DNA of 55,047 nucleotides from Yoonia sp. (lineage in GTDB: Bacteria; Pseudomonadota; Alphaproteobacteria; Rhodobacterales; Rhodobacteraceae). The notes below the pieces were generated by a model. The model worked only from the letters and a program-made list of their open reading frames with translations. It searched no databases and had not been told where the DNA came from. The translations under genes were made by a program, and so were the position numbers. Position 1 is the first letter of the stretch. Each line of letters opens with the position of its first letter. Positions 33,766-43,977 of the stretch are shown piece after piece. The DNA lies in NCBI RefSeq assembly GCF_017854415.1, contig NZ_JAFMHR010000003.1, forward strand, positions 1 through 55,047, given 5' to 3'.

Positions 33766-34145
33766 CTGTTTGCACTTCATGCAAACACAAAGGGACGGAC
33801 TGCCGCCCCGGTTATGAACTTATCGAAAAACTGCGCCGTGCGATTGCTACGGCTGGTGACACGATCACCGAAGACTTCGCCGTTTCAGGCGTGGCGTGCA
33901 TGGCAGGCTGTGACCGGCCTTGCACTGTGGCTTATCATGGCACGCAAAAGGCGACGTATCTGTTCGGAGATATGACCCCCGAAGACGACATCGAAGACCT
34001 TGTCGCATTCGCCAAGCACTACGCCTTGCTGGACGACGGCTGGTGTTCCTCTGTGGACCGCCCCGGAAAACTGCGCAAATCGACCTTGGCCCGCGTGCCT
34101 GCCGCGTTGATGGTGATTGAAGAAGCCAAGGCTTTGGCATCATGA
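33741..34145 (+). CDS. DUF1636 family cysteine-containing protein
   Basis: A 134-residue DUF1636 protein with ITVCTSCKHKGTDCRPG near the N-terminus and a CMAGCDRPCTVAY motif in the middle, giving a thioredoxin-like ferredoxin pattern of cysteines that could bind a metal or an iron-sulfur cluster. The start at 33741 has a GGAGGG ribosome site; the frame begins at a TTG (33714). The stop overlaps the ATPase gene. Presence in a B12-riboswitch operon suggests a role in corrinoid or cobalt handling (inference). Confidence 0.8.
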   Translation: MDRTTHRITVCTSCKHKGTDCRPGYELIEKLRRAIATAGDTITEDFAVSGVACMAGCDRPCTVAYHGTQKATYLFGDMTPEDDIEDLVAFAKHYALLDDGWCSSVDRPGKLRKSTLARVPAALMVIEEAKALAS

Positions 34146-34927
34146 GTGGTGCACACCTGTCTGTCCAAAACGTCAGCTGGCGACCGCGCAAACGCGCGCC
34201 ACTGGTCCTGCACCCCACCAGTTTCGAAGTTGGCACAGGGCGCGTTCTTGGTGTGGTCGGTCCAAACGGCGCGGGAAAATCGACGCTATTGCGCCTACTT
34301 TACCGTTTTCAAACCCCTTCCACTGGCCAAGTAATGATCGACGGCCAAGACCTGTGGGCAATGCCCGCACGCCAAGCTGCCTGTCAGGTCGCAGCCGTCT
34401 TGCAAGAACAACCCGCAGCCTTTGGCCTAACCGTGCGCGAAATCGTGACGCTTGGGCGCACGCCGCATCAGCATGGATTTGCAAAAGCAGGTGCTGGCGA
34501 CGACCTTTTCATCAACCGCGTGATCGCTCTTTTGGACCTGACCTCATTTGCACATCGCAGTTTTGGCACCCTATCAGGGGGCGAACGTCAACGCGTTATG
34601 GTCGCACGTGCGCTAGCCCAGGACCCAAAGATCCTCATTCTCGACGAGCCTACAAACCACCTTGATATCCGCCACCAGCTTGAGGTGTTGGCCCTGATCC
34701 GGCAATTGGACCTGACAATCATTGTGTCTTTGCATGACCTGAACATGGCCGCGAATATCTGCGACGATGTGCTCGTGCTTGAAGACGGCCATCCACGCGG
34801 CTTTGGGGCGCCCCATGACCTGCTGACTGAGGCGCTTGTTTCGCAAACCTTCCGAATTGATGCGCGGCGCGAAACGCTGGCCCCTAGCGACACCAATCAC
34901 CTTTCCTTTCATCTGCCAATTCACTGA
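34142..34927 (+). CDS. ABC transporter ATP-binding protein, cobalamin/siderophore type (BtuD-like)
   Basis: A 261-residue ABC ATPase of the FecE/BtuD class. Walker A is GPNGAGKST, the signature is LSGGERQRV and Walker B is ILILDEPTNHLD; the switch histidine lies in VSLHDLNMA. It overlaps the DUF1636 stop (ATGA) and is followed 9 bp later by the binding-protein gene. The upstream riboswitch makes cobalamin or another corrinoid the likely substrate. Confidence 0.92.
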   Translation: MSGAHLSVQNVSWRPRKRAPLVLHPTSFEVGTGRVLGVVGPNGAGKSTLLRLLYRFQTPSTGQVMIDGQDLWAMPARQAACQVAAVLQEQPAAFGLTVREIVTLGRTPHQHGFAKAGAGDDLFINRVIALLDLTSFAHRSFGTLSGGERQRVMVARALAQDPKILILDEPTNHLDIRHQLEVLALIRQLDLTIIVSLHDLNMAANICDDVLVLEDGHPRGFGAPHDLLTEALVSQTFRIDARRETLAPSDTNHLSFHLPIH

Positions 34928-34936
34928 GATGCCCCT

Positions 34937-35845
34937 ATGAAACTGATCAATGCGACCTTTGCTGCCATCCTGTTGGCGAGCACTGCCGTGGCACAAACAA
35001 CGGTCCAAAGTTGCGACCGCGAAGTCACCTTTGACGCTCCGCCAACAGCTGCAGTGTCCAACGACATTAACCTCACAGAAATGATGCTGGTTCTGGGCCT
35101 GACGGACCGTATGGTCGGCTACACTGGTATTTCCGGCTGGAACAAGCTGGACGCGGAAATGCGGGCTGGCGTCGATCAATTGCCGGAATTGTCCGCACAA
35201 TACCCATCCAAAGAGGTCTTGATCGGCGCCGACGCTGATTTCTATTTTGCTGGCTGGAACTATGGCATGCGCGTCGGCGGCGAGGTGACACCGGAAACTT
35301 TGGCCCCTTTCGGGATCGACGTTTATGAATTGACAGAAAGCTGCATCCAGATCGGCACCAAAGGTGCTGCGTCCATGGATGATATGTACAATGACCTGCG
35401 CAATTTGGGCAAAATCTTTGACGTACAAGATCGCGCGGAAGCTTTGATTGCTGGATATGAGGCCGAATTAGAAGCGTTCCTTGCGGATCAACCGCAGCTG
35501 CCCACCCCGCCGCGTGTCTTCGTCTATGACAGCGGCGAAGACACCGCTTTTACCGCAGGACGCTATGCGATGCCAAACGCCATGATCGAAGTCGCAGGCG
35601 GCGTGAACATTATGAACGACTTTGACAAAAGCTGGGCCACTGTCGGCTGGGAAGCCGTGGTTGAACGCAACCCCGAGATCATCATCATCGTGAACTACGG
35701 CGAAGTGTCTGCTGCGCAAAAGCGCGCATTCATGCTGACCAACCCCGCCTTTGCGGAACTTGATGCTGTTAAGAATGACCGTTTTGTTGTGCTTGAATAC
35801 GTTGAGGCCACACCAGGGCCCCGCAACATAAATTGCGGAACTTGA
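34937..35845 (+). CDS. ABC transporter substrate-binding protein (BtuF-like), C-terminus altered by duplication
   Basis: A 302-residue periplasmic binding protein with a Sec signal (MKLINATFAAILLASTAVAQ) and a two-lobed FecB/BtuF fold (NLTEMMLVLGLTDRMVGYTG; VERNPEIIIIVNYGE). An 82-bp tandem duplication at 35751-35914 shifts the frame near the end: the protein now ends NINCGT at 35845, whereas the second copy would read on as NINAVKTLATAFRAD to a stop at 35952-35954. The unduplicated gene would encode 311 residues. The last helix is therefore lost, with unknown effect on binding. Confidence 0.88.
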   Translation: MKLINATFAAILLASTAVAQTTVQSCDREVTFDAPPTAAVSNDINLTEMMLVLGLTDRMVGYTGISGWNKLDAEMRAGVDQLPELSAQYPSKEVLIGADADFYFAGWNYGMRVGGEVTPETLAPFGIDVYELTESCIQIGTKGAASMDDMYNDLRNLGKIFDVQDRAEALIAGYEAELEAFLADQPQLPTPPRVFVYDSGEDTAFTAGRYAMPNAMIEVAGGVNIMNDFDKSWATVGWEAVVERNPEIIIIVNYGEVSAAQKRAFMLTNPAFAELDAVKNDRFVVLEYVEATPGPRNINCGT

Positions 35846-35914
35846 TGCTGTTAAGAATGACCGTTTTGTCGTGCTTGAATACGTTGAGGCCACACCAGGG
35901 CCCCGCAACATAAA
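35751..35914 (+). repeat. 82-bp direct tandem duplication in the binding-protein gene
   Basis: Copy 1 spans 35751-35832 and copy 2 spans 35833-35914. Both begin TTGCGGAACTTGATGCTG and end GCAACATAAA. They differ at one base (GTTTTGTTGTG against GTTTTGTCGTG). Because 82 is not a multiple of three, copy 1 runs into an early stop in copy 2. Confidence 0.97.
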
Positions 35915-35960
35915 CGCAGTTAAAACGCTGGCTACTGCGTTTCGGGCTGATTGATCTGAA

Positions 35961-37016
35961 ATGGCCCACGCTGAACCGCATATCGCAACGCTTACGCTGC
36001 AAAAAATCAGGTTCCGCCTGACCTTTGCCGTGGGCGCGCTTGTGCTGTTCTTATCGGTGTCGATGGCAATCAGCGTCGGGGCGGTATCCGTGCCGCTATC
36101 AACCGTCTGGGGGATCATCGCCAACAAACTAATCCCCGGAGTGATTACCCCTGACTGGTCGACAGGCCGCGAGGCAATAGTATGGGATATCCGCCTGCCC
36201 CGCGCGATCCTTGCGTGTTTGGTCGGGGCAGGCTTGTCGATTGTCGGGGCCAGCTTACAGGCCGTCACACGTAACCCGCTCGCAGACCCGCATCTGTTGG
36301 GGATATCGGCGGGTGGCGCGTTCGGAGCAATCGTTGCCTTGCTGCATACCGGGCTGTTCTTGGGGCTTATGACCGTACCGCTGCTTGCGTTCGCAGGCGC
36401 GTTGGGGGCGACGTTCATCGTCTTGGCAGTGTCGCAATTCGCGTCAGCGACAAGCGCTGATCGCTTGGTCTTGGCAGGTGTGGCTGTGTCTTTCATCGTC
36501 ATGTCTGCGGCGAATACGCTGATCTTTCTTGGCGATCCACGCGCGGCGCACACCGTAGTGTTCTGGATGCTTGGCGGTCTTGGCCTTGCACAATGGAGCC
36601 AGCTGATCTTTCCGCTCGTGATCTTGATCGGTTGCGGCGCTTACCTTTTTGCCAATGCCCGCAACCTGAATGCCATGACAATAGGGGATGAAACTGCTGC
36701 AACACTTGGGATTCCGGTCCGGCGCTTTCGCTTGCAGGTGTTTGTTGTTGGCGCAGTTATCACCGGCGTTATGGTCGCCTTTTCGGGCATTATTGGCTTT
36801 GTCGGCCTGATGATCCCGCATATCGTGCGGCTGATTGTAGGGGGTGACTATGCCCGTGTGCTGCCTGTCTCTGCGATTTGCGGCGCGATCTTTCTGGTCT
36901 GGGCTGATATATTTGCGCGCACCGTGATGGCACCCGATGACATCCCAATTGGCATTATCACCGGATTGGTCGGTGGTGTGTTCTTTGTATGGCTGCTGCG
37001 CGCCGCTAGCCGGTAA
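35961..37016 (+). CDS. ABC transporter permease, FecCD/BtuC family
   Basis: A 351-residue membrane protein of the FecCD family with about ten helices. Diagnostic segments are IRLPRAILACLVGAGLSIVG, NPLADPHLLGISAGGAFGA and GIIGFVGLMIPHIVRLIVG. It should form the membrane channel of the riboswitch-controlled corrinoid importer. Its start lies 6 bp after the ancestral stop of the binding-protein gene and 115 bp after the present stop, so the duplication also separates the two genes in translation. Confidence 0.93.
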   Translation: MAHAEPHIATLTLQKIRFRLTFAVGALVLFLSVSMAISVGAVSVPLSTVWGIIANKLIPGVITPDWSTGREAIVWDIRLPRAILACLVGAGLSIVGASLQAVTRNPLADPHLLGISAGGAFGAIVALLHTGLFLGLMTVPLLAFAGALGATFIVLAVSQFASATSADRLVLAGVAVSFIVMSAANTLIFLGDPRAAHTVVFWMLGGLGLAQWSQLIFPLVILIGCGAYLFANARNLNAMTIGDETAATLGIPVRRFRLQVFVVGAVITGVMVAFSGIIGFVGLMIPHIVRLIVGGDYARVLPVSAICGAIFLVWADIFARTVMAPDDIPIGIITGLVGGVFFVWLLRAASR

Positions 37017-37026
37017 TACAGCTGGA

Positions 37027-38370
37027 TTATTCCTTAAGTCGCGACCAAGTCAGGCGGACCAGCAGCCCACCCAATGGCGCGCGACCAAGTGACAGGCTGC
37101 AGTCATGCGTCACTGCCATGTCATGCGCGATACTAAGCCCCAGTCCCGTCCCCGGTTTTTCTTTGTCTAACCGACTGCCGCGTTCAAGAACGGCGTCTCT
37201 CGCTGCGCCAGGAATACCAGGGCCGTCATCCTCGACAGTCAAAAACGCCAAATCGCCGTCATGACCTGCCCGCAAGGTAATGCGTCCTTGTGTCCATTTC
37301 ATCGCATTGTCGATAAGGTTCCCCAAGAGTTCGGTAAGGTCGAATTCGTCAAACGGTGCGCGAAGCGTTTCAGGAATGTCGACAACCCACGCAATGTGTT
37401 CTGCACCGGGTTGGCGGCTGAGAGCTGCCTGCAGGCGCACGGCAATTGGGGCCAGTTTGCAGTGCCGCCTGATCTGATGGCTGTCGCGGCTACGGGCGAG
37501 TTCACGTTCAACGATGTATTCGATGTTTGCGATCTCAGTGCTCAATTCACTCGCAAGCACGCCTTGCCCACCCCGGCGCATCTTGCGTTCCACACCTTGC
37601 ATGATTGTTAGCGGTGTTTTGAGGCCATGTGCCAAGTTTGCTGCCCCCGAGCGTACCCGACCCAATGTCTGTGCGTTGGTATCAAGGAGTTGATTGACCT
37701 CATTGGCCAATGGCAAGATTTCGGTCGGATAGTCCTCTGACAACCGATCAGTAGAGGAATCGCGAATTCGGCTTAATTCCGAGCGTACCATTTCGAGTGG
37801 CTTTAGCCCAAGCTTCACCTGAACCCAGGTTGCTACCAACAAGAATGCACCAAGAATGGTAAGCGCCAAAACAGAGTAACTAAAAAAACCCGCGACCGAA
37901 GCATCAAGGTCGGCCCGGTCAATCGCCACTGCCAAATATACTTCACGCCGTGCGTCGCCTGCGCCGGTGGTCACAATCCAACTTGCTACGGCGACAGCTT
38001 CGCCAGTTTCCATTTCAAGATTCGAAAAAACAATCTGTCCCGCCATATCCGGGCGCTTGATGGCGAGCGGTGCAGCCCAAAAAGACGGGGACAGGACCGG
38101 TGGTGCTTCGTCGATTTGAATCTGCCAATAATAGCCCGACAATGCCTGATCAAAGCGCGGGTCAGAAAGCGGTGCAATCTCGATTTCACCTGCGGCATTG
38201 ACACCCACATTGCCACTTAGCAGCAAGAGGTATGTCTCAAGTTCATCCTGAACGCGTTCTTCGAAATACATCCGAAACAGAAAGTTCAACACGAATGCTG
38301 TGGCGACCAATGCCAATGCCGTTGTGATGGCTGCTGCCAGAAGCAGACGTAGGCTTAGGGATGATTTCAC
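37027..38370 (-). CDS. two-component sensor histidine kinase
   Basis: A 447-residue membrane kinase. An N-terminal helix, a periplasmic domain of about 135 residues and a second helix (about residues 165-190) precede a HAMP-like segment. The phosphorylated His248 is in NLAHGLKTPLTIMQG. N and G boxes are present (LLGNLIDNAMKWTQ; DDGPGIPGAARDAV; GTGLGLSIAHDMA). It overlaps the response regulator gene by four bases. With the upstream PepSY-like protein it resembles PhoQ/QseC-type systems that sense envelope conditions. Confidence 0.93.
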   Translation of the reverse strand: MKSSLSLRLLLAAAITTALALVATAFVLNFLFRMYFEERVQDELETYLLLLSGNVGVNAAGEIEIAPLSDPRFDQALSGYYWQIQIDEAPPVLSPSFWAAPLAIKRPDMAGQIVFSNLEMETGEAVAVASWIVTTGAGDARREVYLAVAIDRADLDASVAGFFSYSVLALTILGAFLLVATWVQVKLGLKPLEMVRSELSRIRDSSTDRLSEDYPTEILPLANEVNQLLDTNAQTLGRVRSGAANLAHGLKTPLTIMQGVERKMRRGGQGVLASELSTEIANIEYIVERELARSRDSHQIRRHCKLAPIAVRLQAALSRQPGAEHIAWVVDIPETLRAPFDEFDLTELLGNLIDNAMKWTQGRITLRAGHDGDLAFLTVEDDGPGIPGAARDAVLERGSRLDKEKPGTGLGLSIAHDMAVTHDCSLSLGRAPLGGLLVRLTWSRLKE

Positions 38371-39032
38371 GGCTCATCCTCTGCGATCATGTAGCCGAAC
38401 CCGCGGCGGGTCTGGATCACACCGCCGCCGATCTTGCGGCGCAAGCGGCCCACGAGAACTTCCACAGCATTGCTGTCCGGTTCTTGGTCACGGTAGTAAA
38501 TGTTCTCGACCAGCTCTTCTTGACCAATCACCTGCCCGCGATGGTGCAACAGGTAATTCAAAAGCCGGTATTCCAAAGGTGTGATCTTCAAAGGGCGCCC
38601 ATCAACCGATACCCGCATTTGTCGCAGATCCACTCGCAGTGGTCCGGCCTCGAGTGTTGTAGTCTTTTGTCCGCTGGACCGCCGAAGTAGGGCCCGCAAT
38701 CGGGCGACGAGCTCCTCCATCTGGAACGGTTTACCCAGATAATCATCCGCACCCGCATCAATACCTGCGACACGCTCGTTCCAGTTTGCGCGCGCCGTCA
38801 ACAAAATGACCGGCATATCCAAACCTTCTTCGCGCCATTTACGCAGGACGGAAATACCGTCACGCTTGGGCAAGCCGACATCCAGAACTGCGGCTGCATA
38901 TTTTTCTGTGCTGCCAAGAAACCAGCCTTCTTCGCCATCGCAAGCGATCTCTGGAATCATCCCCTCTGCCGTCAGGACATCGGCGATCAATTCGGCGATT
39001 TTGCGTTCGTCTTCGACGATCAAAATACGCAT
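38367..39032 (-). CDS. OmpR/PhoP-type response regulator
   Basis: A 221-residue regulator with a receiver domain (acidic pocket ED at residues 7-8, phosphorylated Asp51 in VLDVGLPKRDG, lysine in GKPFQ) and a C-terminal winged helix (LTPLEYRLL-like ITPLEYRLLNYLLHHRG; EVLVGRLRRKI). It overlaps the kinase gene and starts directly next to the stop of the PepSY-like gene, so all belong to one operon. Targets are not evident. Confidence 0.94.
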   Translation of the reverse strand: MRILIVEDERKIAELIADVLTAEGMIPEIACDGEEGWFLGSTEKYAAAVLDVGLPKRDGISVLRKWREEGLDMPVILLTARANWNERVAGIDAGADDYLGKPFQMEELVARLRALLRRSSGQKTTTLEAGPLRVDLRQMRVSVDGRPLKITPLEYRLLNYLLHHRGQVIGQEELVENIYYRDQEPDSNAVEVLVGRLRRKIGGGVIQTRRGFGYMIAEDEP

Positions 39033-39614
39033 TTAGCAGTTCCGCACATTGGTGATTTGACCCGATTTTGCATCAACAGTGACCGATACAATAGCACCGG
39101 AACGGTTAACAATGACGACACGAAACGCAGGCGACTGCCCACTTTCGGAAAAGCCGACCCGCAACATTCTGCCGGGGTGTCTGGATTGCACGTTGTTCAA
39201 AATCTCGCGCAGCGGTCGGGCATCGCCGCGCGCAATCGCTTGCTGCGCGCGCTCGTAATCTTGGCGCGTAATCTGTCCGCCTCCGGGCAGCGGTGCCTGT
39301 CGACAAGTCCCCGCCCCACTTGGACCGCTTGAGCTTGAAACGTTGGTGCGCTCGGTCGTCTCGGACGACCCACTAGGCCCGTTTGATGCAGACGGCGCAG
39401 ACGGGGTGCTTGCCGGGCTTGGCGGCGAAGGCGGTGTGGCCGGACTGGGTGGCGAAGGTGGTGTCGCAGGACTGGGCGGCGTCGGCGCAGATACGCTTGA
39501 TGCAGCATGAGCCATGCTTAATCCCAAAATGCCGGGTGACATGTAGATACTCGCGGCGCTCAGACCCAATCGCGACAGCGCCGCGCGGCGAGATATGCGT
39601 TTGTTTTCGGTCAC
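39033..39614 (-). CDS. Tat-exported Pro/Ser/Ala-repeat protein with PepSY-like domain
   Basis: A 193-residue protein. It has a twin-arginine signal (ISRRAALSRLGLSAAS, ending MAHAASS), then a low-complexity stretch with a nine-residue repeat PSPATPPSP, a Ser/Thr/Gly-rich linker, and a C-terminal PepSY-like domain (REILNNVQSRHPGRMLRVGF; VVIVNRSGAIVSVTVDAKSG). One cysteine pair, in GTCRQ and at the C-terminal NC, could form a disulfide. The GTG start at 39614 overlaps the kinase-like gene stop. The HAASSVSAP sequence is shared with the protein at 40979-41356. PepSY proteins often modulate adjacent sensor kinases. Confidence 0.8.
   Translation of the reverse strand: MTENKRISRRAALSRLGLSAASIYMSPGILGLSMAHAASSVSAPTPPSPATPPSPPSPATPPSPPSPASTPSAPSASNGPSGSSETTERTNVSSSSGPSGAGTCRQAPLPGGGQITRQDYERAQQAIARGDARPLREILNNVQSRHPGRMLRVGFSESGQSPAFRVVIVNRSGAIVSVTVDAKSGQITNVRNC
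39412..39492. repeat. 27-bp tandem repeat (three units)
   Basis: Units 39412-39438, 39439-39465 and 39466-39492, the last diverging in its second half. It encodes the nine-residue Pro/Ser/Ala/Thr repeat of the PepSY-like protein and is in frame, so copy-number change would alter length without breaking the gene. Confidence 0.85.
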
Positions 39615-40849
39615 CGTACAGCCACTTCAGCGCGCGCCGGAACAATCAACTGGGCCGCAACAAGGCTGCGCATCAGGTCTTCGCTATCGGTCGCAATCTG
39701 GGTGGTCGCGACATCTTCGAAGGCCGCCATCAGGATTTCGATGACTTCGTCCAAGTTTGCCGGCTCCTTTAGCACATTCCAGATAGCAACTGATCCCGCG
39801 TTCAGGCGGTAGATTGCAAGCCCGTTGCTATCGGCAAGAAAATGATCATGACCCACTTTGGTTTCCGTCAATCCAGCGGCTTGGACATATGGACACGCCC
39901 GCATAAACTGCGGCGACGGTTGTCCCAGCATTTCTAAAGGCGCTTGCTTCAAAGCCGGATCAACAGCGCTGCTTTTTGCGGTCGGCAATGCATGAAGCGC
40001 CGGATGGTTGGCAAGAAACTGCGCTGCTTGCTCGCCGTTGTGATATGTCAGACGGTACAAAGGGAGATGATGGGTCAACACATCCGTTGCGTTCAGGATT
40101 GCGCCAGAAAGCTGTGTGCGGGCAAAATTCTGGGTGATGAGACTGGCAAGCGCGTCCGCGCGCGGGATGACTTCCAGCAATGGCTCTGTTGGGTCGTCTT
40201 GCCGTTCCAATACCACCACCGCGCCAAGTGGCATCGTCTCGCCGCCCGGCGCGACCGGGGCCGTAGACAAGTATTTGTACTGCTTATTGGAAGGGCCTGG
40301 ATCCTGCTGAACCCAAGCCTGAAAGGCATCGCTGAAACTCTCCGGTAAAGGCAGGCGAATGCGTGGCACGACACCGTTTGCAATACCATGAAAGGTACGG
40401 CTTTCTGGATCAGTCCGCACAGGCAGGAAATCATCAGTGTATATTTTGTGCCCCAGTTGGCCCAGCGCTGCTGCAATCGTGCTTTTGCCTGCGCGACGGG
40501 CATTGGGAAAGACAACAAGCCTTCCGTCAAACGCAACCGCCGCGGCATGCAAGCACAAAAGCGTCGGGTCAGAGCGCAGGCGCTCCCAAGCCATTTCCGC
40601 GACAAGGTCACAAACGGCATTCACAGCATTCCAATCACGAAGATCAGAAGGCGCTTCACCAAGCGAAATTGACCAATAATCGCCGGCGCTGGGCCTGATT
40701 GTCACGAATGGCTGACTTTGACAGACGGGACTGGCGGTATGCGGCCAGCCCGCAAGGACCTCAGAGATCATAGGCACCAAACGCGCCGCATTGTCTAATG
40801 CTACAGGATTTTTTAATCCGTCAAACTGCAAATACGTCGTCTGTGTCAC
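39611..40849 (-). CDS. HPr-kinase-like protein fused to a PqqD-like domain
   Basis: A 412-residue predicted cytoplasmic enzyme. The central domain resembles HprK-type serine kinases: a P-loop PNARRAGKSTIAAAL with Lys122, then YTDDFLPV with an Asp pair, and NGVVPRIRLPLPESF-like features. The C-terminal 85 residues (VGHDHFLADSNGLAIYRLN, AGSVAIWNVLKEPANLDEV) resemble PqqD, the fold used for peptide recognition in RiPP enzymes. The GTG start at 40849 has GAGGA seven bases upstream. It lies between two Tat-exported Ser-rich protein genes, which are candidate substrates (inference). Confidence 0.75.
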   Translation of the reverse strand: MTQTTYLQFDGLKNPVALDNAARLVPMISEVLAGWPHTASPVCQSQPFVTIRPSAGDYWSISLGEAPSDLRDWNAVNAVCDLVAEMAWERLRSDPTLLCLHAAAVAFDGRLVVFPNARRAGKSTIAAALGQLGHKIYTDDFLPVRTDPESRTFHGIANGVVPRIRLPLPESFSDAFQAWVQQDPGPSNKQYKYLSTAPVAPGGETMPLGAVVVLERQDDPTEPLLEVIPRADALASLITQNFARTQLSGAILNATDVLTHHLPLYRLTYHNGEQAAQFLANHPALHALPTAKSSAVDPALKQAPLEMLGQPSPQFMRACPYVQAAGLTETKVGHDHFLADSNGLAIYRLNAGSVAIWNVLKEPANLDEVIEILMAAFEDVATTQIATDSEDLMRSLVAAQLIVPARAEVAVR

Positions 40850-40978
40850 GGTCTGTCCTCGCTGGATGGCCCTAACGCTATCCAAAACGAACCCTCAAGA
40901 AAAGGAAAACGGTCTGACTGCTTAAGCCATGGCAGACAAACCGTTCCCCATTTAGGATTTAGTAAGAAAGGCCTTTGC

Positions 40979-41356
40979 TTACTGAAGACCCATGCACCGC
41001 TTGGTTCCGTCGATGTCGTTGTCTACGACCTCTCCGCCAGCAGCTTCGCATTCGCTGGACGTCATGTTCTGTCCTGACCGGCTTGGACCGCTCGACGCGC
41101 TGGGTGAGGATGCAGGGCTGGGACTGGACGTCGAACTGGGGGCAGATGCAGGACTTGGGTTGGATGCCGGACTAGGCGCAGATGCCGGACTTGGCGCTGA
41201 CGCAGGGCTTGGCGCAGATGGGGCACTGACCGACGATGCGGCATGTGCAACCGACATCATGCTGAATGCCGGAATAGTATATGCGGCAAGTGCTGCCCCA
41301 CCAATGCGGGTAATCGCCTTGCGACGGGAAAGTGTTTTGTCGATGTCATTGGACAT
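40979..41356 (-). CDS. small Tat-exported Ser/Pro/Ala-repeat protein
   Basis: A 125-residue protein with a twin-arginine signal (LSRRKAITRIGGAALAAY, ending VAHAASS), six-residue PSPASA-type repeats, and a C-terminal two-cysteine module (SSECEAAGGEVVDND, TKRCMGLQ). The start at 41356 has an AAGGA ribosome site eight bases upstream; an ATG at 41374 is possible. No known family is recognised. It shares HAASSVSAP and the repeat style with the PepSY-like protein and is the first gene of the operon. It could be a precursor or substrate for the kinase-PqqD protein. Confidence 0.75.
   Translation of the reverse strand: MSNDIDKTLSRRKAITRIGGAALAAYTIPAFSMMSVAHAASSVSAPSAPSPASAPSPASAPSPASNPSPASAPSSTSSPSPASSPSASSGPSRSGQNMTSSECEAAGGEVVDNDIDGTKRCMGLQ
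41109..41216. repeat. 18-bp tandem repeat (six units)
   Basis: Six in-frame 18-bp units starting at 41109, 41127, 41145, 41163, 41181 and 41199, of the form GATGCCGGACTTGGCGCA. They encode the Ser/Pro/Ala repeats of the small Tat-exported protein. Units differ at a few positions each, the second (41127) most. Confidence 0.88.
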
Positions 41357-41374
41357 TTGAATGATCCTTTTCAT

Positions 41375-41771
41375 GGTTTGGGCGGTTCTGGATATCCACC
41401 CTGCATGGCTTTTAGCTTGGCCGCCCGTTCAAGCGCCTGAACCAACATGTCAGTGTTTTGTCAGGTTCGGTGACACGCTCTAACCAGTTCTTTCCATTGA
41501 ACTTATGTACCATGTCATCATTCGCAGCACTTGTGTGGCTGGCTGTTAAGATAAATCTGCAGCCAATCAAACTCCTAGACGTTGCAGCACCTGATCAGAA
41601 ATCCAAGCCGCCGGCCTTTGGTCAATGCTCCAGACATTTTTTGAACAAACGGGGCATCCTGAACTCGTTATTCTGTCAGCCCAGTGGACCCTCGACATTG
41701 ATTGGCTATTGTATTTTACTAGAAAAGACCGGATCGTATTTGTTCCGCAACAAAGCAAGTGCACCGCCTCC
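41375..41771. other. gene-free stretch before tupB
   Basis: No gene is supported. The tupB frame is open up to 41625, but the extra residues look non-conserved. On the minus strand a 25-codon frame ending GGYPEPPKP stops at an ATGA overlap with the alternative start at 41374; it may be a leader or chance. Promoters for both flanking divergent operons should be here. Confidence 0.4.
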
Positions 41772-42476
41772 ATGATTGAAATTTTAGAGGGTTTGAAAGC
41801 CGCGTTTTGGCTGGTGATTACATTCGACGCCGAGCTTTGGGAAATTAGCCTTCGGTCACTGCGGGTTACACTGACGGCGCTCTTGATAGCTTCGGCTATC
41901 GCGATCCCCTTGGGGACCTATCTCGCGGTGCAACGCTTTCGGTTTCGCCGTTTTGTCATATCATTGATCAACGCCTTGATGGGCCTGCCGCCGGTTGTTG
42001 TCGGGCTTGTTGTCTATATTTTGTTGTCCCGCACGGGGCCGTTTGGGGTGCTTGATCTCCTGTTCACGCCCACGGCTATGATCATCGCCCAAGTCATCAT
42101 CATCACGCCCGTGATTGCCTCCATCGCGCATCAATCCATGCGCGAGCTTTGGGCCGAATACCATGATCTTCTGATCTCGCTGAATACGTCAAAAAGGCAA
42201 CGTATTCTGACGTTAATCTGGGACGGCAGACGGAATTTGTTGACTGCCGCGCTCGCCGGATTTGGGCGTGCTATTGGTGAGGTCGGTGCGATCATGATCG
42301 TTGGTGGAAACATCGATCACGTAACACGCGTTTTGACGACGGCGATTGCGCTGGAAACGGGCAAAGGCGATTTTGCGCTCGCCCTTGGACTTGGCTTTGT
42401 GCTGATCGGTCTTGCGATTTTGGTGAATTTGGCGATCCACACGTTGTCACAAACAGAGCGGGAGGGCCGCTGGTGA
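41772..42476 (+). CDS. tupB: tungstate ABC transporter permease
   Basis: A 234-residue membrane permease with about five helices. The typical segments are LRSLRVTLTALLIASAIAIP, GLPPVVVGLVVYILLSRTGP and the ATPase-contact loop AALAGFGRAIGEVGAIMIVGG. This is the TupB/molybdate-type permease pattern. A longer frame from 41625 lacks conservation; the ATG at 41772 gives the expected length. It overlaps the ATPase gene by four bases. Confidence 0.9.
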   Translation: MIEILEGLKAAFWLVITFDAELWEISLRSLRVTLTALLIASAIAIPLGTYLAVQRFRFRRFVISLINALMGLPPVVVGLVVYILLSRTGPFGVLDLLFTPTAMIIAQVIIITPVIASIAHQSMRELWAEYHDLLISLNTSKRQRILTLIWDGRRNLLTAALAGFGRAIGEVGAIMIVGGNIDHVTRVLTTAIALETGKGDFALALGLGFVLIGLAILVNLAIHTLSQTEREGRW

Positions 42477-43177
42477 CACAGATGTTCCCATTAACCCTTG
42501 ATCAAGTTTTGGTGCGTCGGCGTGGCAAAGCTGTCATCGGTCCGACCAACCTTGTGCTTCAGCCCGATGGCCCCACAATCATTATTGGGCCAAACGGTTC
42601 GGGCAAGACCACATTGCTGCGTGTGATGCACGGGATCGAACGGGTGACCAGCGGCACGGTTGCTTGGCAGCATAATGATCCGTCGCAACACGCCTTTGTC
42701 TTTCAGTCCCCAATCGTCTTGCGGCGATCGGTTTATGAAAATCTGGCTTATCCATTGCGGTTAATCCAAACGCCGAAGCCTGAAGTTGCGCAAGCGGTGG
42801 ATCATTGGTTAGAACGCATTGGTCTTGCCGATATGCGCCATAGTCCAGCGTTGCGTTTGTCAGGTGGCGAGAGGCAAAAGCTAGCCATTGCGCGGGCGCT
42901 TATTCGCAAACCACAGGTCCTATTTCTGGACGAACCTTGCGCAAACCTTGATGGCCACGCCACCCGCGAAATCGAGGCGCTGCTCCAAGAAGCCACTGCA
43001 GCAGGAACCCGCCTTGTGATGTCGACACATGACATGGGTCAGGCCCGCAGGCTTGCGCAAGAACTCGTCTTCATGTTGGGTGGCAAAGTACATGATGTGG
43101 GCGATGCAGAGACCCTATTCACAAGCCCCGCAAACAAAGAGCTATCAGCGTTTCTAAGAGGAGATATCGTAACATGA
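42473..43177 (+). CDS. tupC: tungstate ABC transporter ATP-binding protein
   Basis: A 234-residue ABC ATPase. Walker A is GPNGSGKTT, the signature is LSGGERQKLAIARAL and Walker B is VLFLDEPCANLD. It starts with GTG inside the tupB stop and overlaps tupA by four bases. Together with the binding protein it forms a TupABC-type tungstate importer. Confidence 0.9.
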   Translation: MTQMFPLTLDQVLVRRRGKAVIGPTNLVLQPDGPTIIIGPNGSGKTTLLRVMHGIERVTSGTVAWQHNDPSQHAFVFQSPIVLRRSVYENLAYPLRLIQTPKPEVAQAVDHWLERIGLADMRHSPALRLSGGERQKLAIARALIRKPQVLFLDEPCANLDGHATREIEALLQEATAAGTRLVMSTHDMGQARRLAQELVFMLGGKVHDVGDAETLFTSPANKELSAFLRGDIVT

Positions 43178-43977
43178 TCAGAAGTTTTTCGGCGCTTATC
43201 CTTGCGCTTTGGGCTACGGGCAGTACCGCTGAAGAGATGCGTTTGGCAGTAACAACGTCTTTTGATAGCTCGGGATTAGCGGATGTACTTCTGCCTGCGA
43301 TCAAGGAAGATCTTGATCTGGACGTGCAATTGCTTGTCGTGGGAACCGGACAAGCGCTTCGATTGGGCGAGGCAGGCGATGTCGATGCCGTTCTGGTTCA
43401 TTCCAAAGCCGCGGAAGAAGCATTCGTCGCCGCAGGTCATGGCACGCACCGTCGCGAGATCATGTATAACGATTTTGTCCTGATTGGCCCCGCAACAGAT
43501 ACGGCTGGAATTGCGGATGCGGCCAGTGCTGCAGATGCATTGCAACGCATCGAAACCGCACAATCCCTTTTCGTCAGCCGTGGTGATGACAGCGGTACAC
43601 ACAAGGCAGAGTTGACCGTTTGGGCGCAAGCTGGGTTTGACGCAAGTACCTTTGACAGTTGGTATCGTTCTGTCGGGGCTGGCATGGGTCAGGCTTTGAA
43701 CACCGCCGCCGCGATGGATGCCTATGTTCTGTCAGATCGGGCCAGTTGGCTGAATTTTGCAAACAAGGCCGAATTGGCGCTGCTCTATTCCGGCGACCCT
43801 GCCCTGTTTAACCAATACGCATATCTTCCTGTCGCACCGGCTAAAAACGAAAACGTCCGCAATGATTTGGCGATGGTGCTTGAGGCATGGCTGACGGGTC
43901 CCCGCGCAGAGGCGTTGATCAATGGCTATGCGATCAATGGCGAGACGCTTTTTGTGTTCAACGCACAGCCAAAGTGA
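43174..43977 (+). CDS. tupA: tungstate-binding periplasmic protein
   Basis: A 267-residue binding protein with a Sec signal (MIRSFSALILALWATGSTAE). Segments diagnostic of TupA are TTSFDSSGLADVLLPAI, EAGDVDAVLVHSKAAEE, YNDFVLIGPATD and FVSRGDDSGTHKAEL. The protein should bind tungstate (perhaps molybdate) in the periplasm. It ends directly against the convergent formate dehydrogenase maturation genes, which supports a tungsten supply role. Confidence 0.92.
   Translation: MIRSFSALILALWATGSTAEEMRLAVTTSFDSSGLADVLLPAIKEDLDLDVQLLVVGTGQALRLGEAGDVDAVLVHSKAAEEAFVAAGHGTHRREIMYNDFVLIGPATDTAGIADAASAADALQRIETAQSLFVSRGDDSGTHKAELTVWAQAGFDASTFDSWYRSVGAGMGQALNTAAAMDAYVLSDRASWLNFANKAELALLYSGDPALFNQYAYLPVAPAKNENVRNDLAMVLEAWLTGPRAEALINGYAINGETLFVFNAQPK

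Follow-up and report, generated by a model that had tools for sequence, protein, structure and literature searches.

A putative pre-export modification system with a fused HprK-like kinase-PqqD protein and Tat-exported, Ser-rich partners in Yoonia and other Alphaproteobacteria

Introduction

The closest described relatives of the system reported here are lasso-peptide clusters that encode a peptide kinase. In the paeninodin (PadeK/PadeB1) and BsfK/BsfB1 clusters, a Ser residue of the precursor is phosphorylated, as related in passages of PMC8498205 and PMC10368454, and the latter presents BsfK as a lasso kinase that is assisted by a separate RRE, the recognition element of ribosomally synthesised and post-translationally modified peptides (RiPPs). 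We analysed a 55,047-nt stretch of DNA from Yoonia sp. (contig NZ_JAFMHR010000003.1, hereafter the window), which carries an operon of five genes coding for a small protein with a twin-arginine translocation (Tat) leader and a Ser-rich repeat (T1), an HprK-like kinase fused to a PqqD/RRE domain (kinase-PqqD), a second Tat protein (T2), a response regulator and a sensor histidine kinase. Like the lasso kinase clusters, this locus combines a predicted HprK-type peptide kinase, a B1/PqqD-type RRE and a leader with a motif resembling YxxPxL. In contrast to them, its kinase and RRE are fused, its leader is a Tat signal, and Ser repeats replace the knotted core.

Two other kinds of protein are close to the enzyme. 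HPr(Ser) kinase/phosphorylase (HprK/P) shares its predicted fold and the His, GKS and Asp-Asp residues that have a catalytic role in HprK/P; however, the window protein has an extra N-terminal part and the PqqD domain, and no HPr partner was recognised in the operon. The NCBI families 'HprK-related kinase A' and 'HPr-rel-A system PqqD' (TIGR04352 and TIGR04353) have the logic of a kinase and a PqqD protein in common with it. The resemblance to TIGR04352 is local, at the P-loop, and the window protein scores 37.3 bits, far under the cut-off of 200; the search output names no substrate for the NCBI families. The B2 leader peptidase of lasso clusters (PF13471) has no match in the window's genome, which is 92.6% complete, and a full lasso cluster was rejected for that genome on this ground. 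No cyclase or ABC exporter was recognised by eye in the operon, the Asn-synthetase-like cyclase not having been searched for genome-wide. Since the genome has no match to the B2 protease family and the score is under the cut-off, we file the system under neither lasso peptides nor HprK-related kinase A. Searches of openly licensed PMC papers listed no description of a kinase/Tat-leader system.

The kinase-PqqD enzyme

The C-terminal domain is recognised both by profile and by fold. PqqD (PF05402) matches residues 338-402 with 32.9 bits (Pfam cut-off 23.4), the remainder of the protein being without a Pfam match. In an AlphaFold2 model based on an alignment of 25 relatives (mean pLDDT 93, pTM 0.90), Foldseek matched this domain to TbiB1, a lasso-peptide RRE, in complex with its leader (5v1u/5v1v, TMt 0.79/0.82). 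The kinase part of the model was matched to the HprK/P and PEPCK families with E of about 1e-5 to 1e-4, including the HprK/P structures 3tqf, 1kkm and 1jb1 (prob 1.00, TMt about 0.5-0.57). TIGR00679 gave no match to the window protein at E<=1. The resemblance to HprK, only local by sequence, is thus supported by the modelled fold.

Invariant columns in the 25 relatives include H101, A120-G121-K122-S123, D139-D140, R163 and R165. By motif order, H101, G121-K122-S123 and D139-D140 correspond to H148, G168-K169-S170 and D186-D187 of BsfK, for which the passages of PMC10368454 on catalysis name H148, G163, K169, S170, D186 and D187 as significant. An earlier note on this DNA, made by reading its letters and open reading frames (ORFs), had described a P-loop, a DD motif and a PqqD-like C-terminus in this protein. 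The structure prediction and the alignment bear this out, with the restriction that the first two P-loop glycines of BsfK are not kept in the window. The kinase tree comprises two supported clades (99/96 and 99/99), that of the window and a second one, clade B (L079-L084 and L086). L085, whose kinase frame is interrupted, was left out of the alignment and the tree.

Co-occurrence of kinase and leader

An upstream gene on the same strand coding for a small Tat protein with the leader is present in all 26 loci with a kinase at E<1e-20. These proteins are 84-130 aa long and start 118-810 nt before the kinase ORF start used. The family sample contributes 23 genomes to the 26 loci, to which three other genome contigs were added; L065, a duplicate of L061, was dropped before counting, and L085 is included. 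In a scan of 295 family genomes, the leader profile matched 24 at E<1e-8, the matches that follow reaching 8e-5 at best. Of these 24, 23 have a kinase at E<1e-20; kinase-like matches beyond that reach 1.8e-9 at best. In the 24th genome (G196), the start of the kinase gene lies at a contig end and the remainder is cut off. At strict cut-offs, leader and kinase therefore coincide in 24/295 genomes, and neither occurs alone (p 9e-36); kinase-like matches at E<=1e-3 are found in 46/295.

The class sample of 385 genomes, with cut-offs of E<=1e-20 for the kinase and E<=1e-4 for the leader, gave 33 genomes with both, three with the kinase only, two with the leader only and 347 with neither. In 19 genomes, the kinase-PqqD profile has its best match between 1e-20 and 1e-10, and none of these gave a leader match. 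The pairing of kinase and leader is not due to chance, and the neighbourhood that the earlier note had singled out is conserved elsewhere.

The pair can also be found in public records, four of the seven matching plasmid records having been examined. In all three that are not lasso clusters (plasmids of Shinella sp. WSC3-e, Paracoccus sp. Arc7-R13 and Paracoccus marcusii), the gene of a 'PqqD family protein' is preceded by that of a 'hypothetical protein' which carries the leader and has a Ser-rich tail. Such annotations may now be read as a defined candidate enzyme-substrate pair. The fourth record, a Sulfitobacter plasmid locus, has a weak match within an annotated lasso cluster and was kept out of the counts, as were the weak kinase relatives L088, L089 and L095, which by reading look like lasso clusters. 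L087, with a weak kinase (E 1.8e-9) and a Tat-like Ser-rich neighbour that the partner script did not accept, is outside the 26.

A Tat leader with a lasso-type motif

An ungapped alignment of 38 columns accommodates all 37 leaders from the kinase loci of the family, with R, R, Y, P, A and A unchanged throughout. This one leader type precedes three different kinds of mature protein, namely repeat proteins, PepSY proteins and one subtilase. Counted from the first Arg, Y is at +15 and P at +18. Two positions beyond P, one of L, F, M, V and I is present in 37/37, although the script that collected these leaders set no Y or P requirement. Both window leaders fit this YxxPx(L/F/M/V/I) pattern, which we liken, from sequence alone, to the YxxPxL of lasso leaders, described in passages of PMC7168211 as required for RRE recognition in Actinobacteria. 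The presence of a lasso-type YxxPx(hydrophobic) motif in a Tat leader provides a concrete docking hypothesis.

Ordinary twin-arginine signal peptides resemble the window leaders in their RR, uncharged hydrophobic stretch and AxA. In contrast, the window-type leaders have a fixed Y/P spacing and no gap, and YxxPx(hydrophobic) is absent from all 29 other Tat-like signals in the fetched DNA, a mixed set of which not all are genuine Tat signals. These 29 are what is left of 33 after removal of three partner leaders with the motif (one a shifted copy) and of L129, a leader-profile hit without it. As for export, the RR motif, the hydrophobic stretch, the AxA and a TatC encoded in the window's genome predict that T1 and T2 are Tat substrates. 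The leader profile matches only these two proteins in that genome. The Paracoccus leaders and that of L171 have a longer hydrophobic stretch and keep the motif. The L129 protein (genome G206) is a partner-like Tat protein encoded away from the kinase, with GGSSS repeats.

Ser/Thr repeats behind the leader

Ser and Thr make up 16-58% of the first 60 post-leader residues across the partners, the lowest value being that of the subtilase. The recurrence of Ser/Thr after Ser/Thr peaks at +3, among offsets of +2 to +5, in 34/37 partners, the exceptions being T1 of L071, L076 and L083. In the window's kinase clade, the interleaved residues are A, P, G, D and E, with R+K at 0-5% in T1, and the second clade is R-rich, with R+K at 17-38% in T1. 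Ser/Thr are thus kept while the other residues of the repeat change. As the two repeat types coincide with the two supported clades of the kinase tree, they represent one contrast rather than many independent events. The repeat of L066 reads N, and its repeat figures rest on few residues.

Split relatives in the class

Many genomes of the class sample encode the kinase (about 280 aa) and PqqD (about 90 aa) in separate neighbouring genes. In some cases, the gene of the leader peptide lies tens of kb from them, as in G321, G591 and G668 (about 40 kb), or on another contig. The four split relatives that were scanned against TIGR04352 reached 29-45 bits (cut-off 200). NTP_transf_5 (PF14907) is encoded on the opposite strand beside the split kinase and PqqD genes at both loci tested (L179:6382-7446 and L181:6127-7200), which recalls the pseudomycoidin-type clusters, where NTP_transf_5 lies near a kinase. 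At the split systems of other Alphaproteobacteria (L174-L188 and L189-L207), many leader peptides end in PSPC/PTPC-like Cys/Pro cores, which take the place of the Ser repeats. One genome, G310 (L176 and L205), has three kinase matches and two leader matches.

Proposed working and its alternatives

We propose that the operon encodes a RiPP-like system of modification before export, a reading to which we give a probability of roughly 70%. The earlier note had likewise suggested that the fused kinase phosphorylates the Ser-rich proteins ahead of Tat export, with the PepSY protein feeding the sensor kinase; its interpretation finds support in part. The C-terminal RRE/PqqD domain would dock on YxxPx(hydrophobic) inside the hydrophobic part of the Tat signal peptide, and the tethered HprK-type domain would move a nucleotide phosphate onto Ser (or Thr) of the low-complexity stretch that follows. 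Tat would then export the protein, and signal peptidase would cut after the conserved AxA. Where present, the PepSY and two-component genes might read the state of the exported protein. We infer leader binding, phosphorylation, their order before export and this readout from the sequences and the model.

A number of points weigh against this proposal. Phosphorylation is deduced throughout from sequence and structure. The BsfK P-loop glycines G163, G166 and G168 correspond to Asn116, Arg119 and Gly121 of the window protein, and only the last is kept. G163 is counted among the residues that matter in the relevant passages of PMC10368454; its position is occupied by Asn, Ser or Ala in the window's clade and by Gly in the seven clade-B rows, and that of G166 is never Gly, being replaced in all 25 rows. 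The same source, in its part on BsfA, reports that phosphorylation was not reduced when Y, P and L were all changed to Ala, so the kinase step does not have to depend on the motif. The occurrence of YxxPx(hydrophobic) in 41/42 class leaders, the single miss being a truncated frame, is partly circular, since those leaders were found with a profile containing Y and P. One match to the family leader profile (L129:6420-6929, G206:C6, E 2.6e-9) has kept the Y and has no P (YVATGI). The co-occurrence cut-offs were chosen after the gaps in the lists had been seen, and only a limited set of first-look candidates was scored in each genome (up to 25 leader candidates in the family scan and 19 in the class scan), so absence is not absolute. 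The class genomes with the kinase only are G397, G478 and G603, and those with the leader and no clear kinase are G407, which has a weak kinase trace, and G666. Finally, many peptides of split systems elsewhere have few Ser (PSPC type), and Ser arrays are therefore not universal.

Of the competing explanations, the one that survives best, which we nevertheless regard as unlikely, is that the fused protein is a dedicated Tat chaperone whose PqqD domain binds the signal peptide and whose nucleotide-binding domain times release to TatBC, without any modification. Redox-enzyme maturation chaperones provide a parallel. The leader, not the mature part, is what all partners conserve, and the loss of two BsfK P-loop glycines also suits a chaperone, as does the nanomolar affinity of RREs for leaders (given for PadeB1 in a passage of PMC5067487). 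However, His, GKS and Asp-Asp, which are important in BsfK, do not vary, Ser/Thr are kept in the repeats, and it is not evident why disordered Ser repeats should need quality control of their folding.

It is less probable still that phosphorylation is only a first step, followed by addition of a further group to the phosphate, such as a sugar, or by elimination. The pseudomycoidin kinase and nucleotidyltransferase give a hexosylated phosphate, according to passages of PMC8498205, and the split loci L179 and L181 carry PF14907 nearby. In contrast, the window's genome has no PF14907 match, which rules out the nucleotidyltransferase as a constant part of the system, and no PF14907 protein was recognised by eye among the genes listed for the family loci, where gene calls are rough.

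Another explanation, with a slim chance in our estimate, is that the kinase domain acts elsewhere, on free serine, HPr or the two-component proteins, and that the repeat proteins merely regulate it. HprK-type folds do phosphorylate different acceptors, and two-component genes belong to the same operon here. However, the block of T2, response regulator and histidine kinase is missing from 16/26 kinase loci, T1 being present in 26/26, and leader and kinase co-occur. That the repeats arose by neutral 9-base expansion, with the linkage reflecting simple vertical inheritance of an old operon, is very improbable: the repeats do resemble triplet expansions and vary in length between close relatives, but kinase and leader are patchily distributed and nevertheless coincide exactly at the cut-offs used (24/295), leader proteins are also found on contigs other than the kinase's, and Ser/Thr persist while the interleaved residues shift from A/P/E to G or R.

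It is tempting to extend the proposal to an undescribed class of secreted phosphoproteins in Alphaproteobacteria, an extension for which we see the odds as even. In such a class, the leader would double as Tat signal and as a docking site for an RRE of the lasso type. An HprK-type kinase, either fused or split, would write Ser/Thr phosphate arrays in the cytoplasm, and the products would be released by Tat instead of an ABC exporter. The leader is reused on repeat, PepSY and subtilase proteins, with envelope regulators (a PepSY two-component system, or a sigma factor of the extracytoplasmic function (ECF) type with a subtilase) alongside in part of the genomes. If true, this would join RiPP leader recognition with Tat export, two fields that have been kept apart, and HprK-type peptide kinases would gain a secreted protein substrate in place of a lasso peptide. 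If confirmed, it would represent a new way of phosphorylating proteins before export. Periplasmic phosphoserine arrays could serve metal binding, adhesion or signalling, which the system would allow to be tested.

Operon layout and regulatory neighbours

Features of the operon are collected in Table 1. All five ORFs of the earlier note were found on the minus strand, with counterparts conserved in relatives. The overlaps that it had placed from the second gene to the fifth exist between kinase-PqqD and T2 and between the response regulator and the histidine kinase (4 nt each), whereas T2 and the response regulator simply abut. HAASSVSAP is indeed present in both T1 and T2. The most likely start of T1 is the ATG at 41356, preceded by AAGGA, rather than the in-frame upstream ATG at 41374 chosen earlier.

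Table 1. Positions of the operon genes and of features within them in the window.
Feature	Position	Strand	Basis or remark
T1, small Tat protein with Ser/Pro/Ala repeat and two-Cys C-terminus	40979..41356	-	125 aa; presumed main substrate
Tat leader of T1 (38 residues, conserved block aligned without gaps)	41222..41335	-	alignment and leader profile
YTIPAF, YxxPx(hydrophobic) of the T1 leader	41264..41281	-	alignment; motif role from passages of PMC7168211 and PMC10368454
T1 Ser-repeat region	41075..41236	-	43% Ser/Thr in first 60 post-leader residues; Ser/Thr at +3 of Ser/Thr 0.72
Hairpin in the gap from T1 to the kinase gene, a possible attenuator	40904..40949	-	RNA fold, 110-nt stretch, z -2.27
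Kinase-PqqD, HprK-like kinase fused to PqqD/RRE	39611..40849	-	412 aa, GTG start
P-loop region NARRAGKST, residues 116-124, predicted kinase active site	40478..40504	-	conservation alignment
PqqD/RRE domain, residues 338-402	39644..39838	-	Pfam match and fold
T2, Tat protein with Ser/Pro linker and PepSY-like domain	39033..39614	-	193 aa, GTG start
YMSPGI, YxxPx(hydrophobic) of the T2 leader	39528..39545	-	alignment
Response regulator, OmpR/PmrA type, accessory	38367..39032	-	family profile searches
Sensor histidine kinase, accessory	37027..38370	-	family profile searches

The gap between T1 and the kinase gene measures 129 nt and contains the hairpin. In 16/26 loci, the 110 nt after the T1 stop fold with a z of -2 or lower. 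The hairpin is a possible attenuator, as would be in keeping with production of more precursor than enzyme. A consensus scan revealed neither a sigma-70 promoter nor an intrinsic terminator between T1 and the kinase gene, and the hairpin is known from RNA folding only.

As for T2, the PepSY-like domain attributed to it falls below the Pfam threshold (18.1 bits against a cut-off of 24), and the top PDB match of its model, a weak one (E 8.7e-3), is YpmB, which we take to be a PepSY protein; the assignment is therefore a partial one. The L069 T2 frame ends early and is not in the PepSY alignment, to which the L076 PepSY protein, missed by the partner script, was added by hand; the latter is outside the repeat/leader set A3. 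T2, response regulator and histidine kinase follow the kinase gene in 10/26 loci (the window, L061-L064, L067-L069, L071 and L076), and L082, one of the 16 without this block, has another response regulator/histidine kinase pair upstream. The PepSY and two-component genes, which the earlier note had linked to the kinase, are thus accessory and not supported as a general part of the system. Its two exported partners hold locally, for T1 and T2; elsewhere, there is one partner, or the partners include S8 subtilases.

Genes for an S8 subtilase and an ECF-type sigma factor were noted, by reading, near the kinase gene in two of the seven clade-B loci (L081 and L084). In a third genome (G026, L128), an S8 subtilase (Pfam) and an ECF-type sigma factor are encoded on a contig other than that of the kinase. 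According to the annotation, the same two genes lie beside the kinase gene in the Shinella and Paracoccus plasmids, which were not placed in the tree. Four subtilases share the leader type and a Ser-containing linker (L081, L128, L225:190-2877 and L226:326-3001), and the L084 subtilase is without the leader. By reading, the gene neighbouring that of the ECF-type sigma factor may code for its anti-sigma factor. At L070 (6301-6885, minus strand), a PepSY-TM-like membrane protein, again named by reading, is encoded right after the kinase, in the place of T2. In the window itself, the operon is flanked by ABC importer genes, assigned by reading ORFs to a siderophore/cobalamin type (34142-37016) and a tungstate type (41625-43977).

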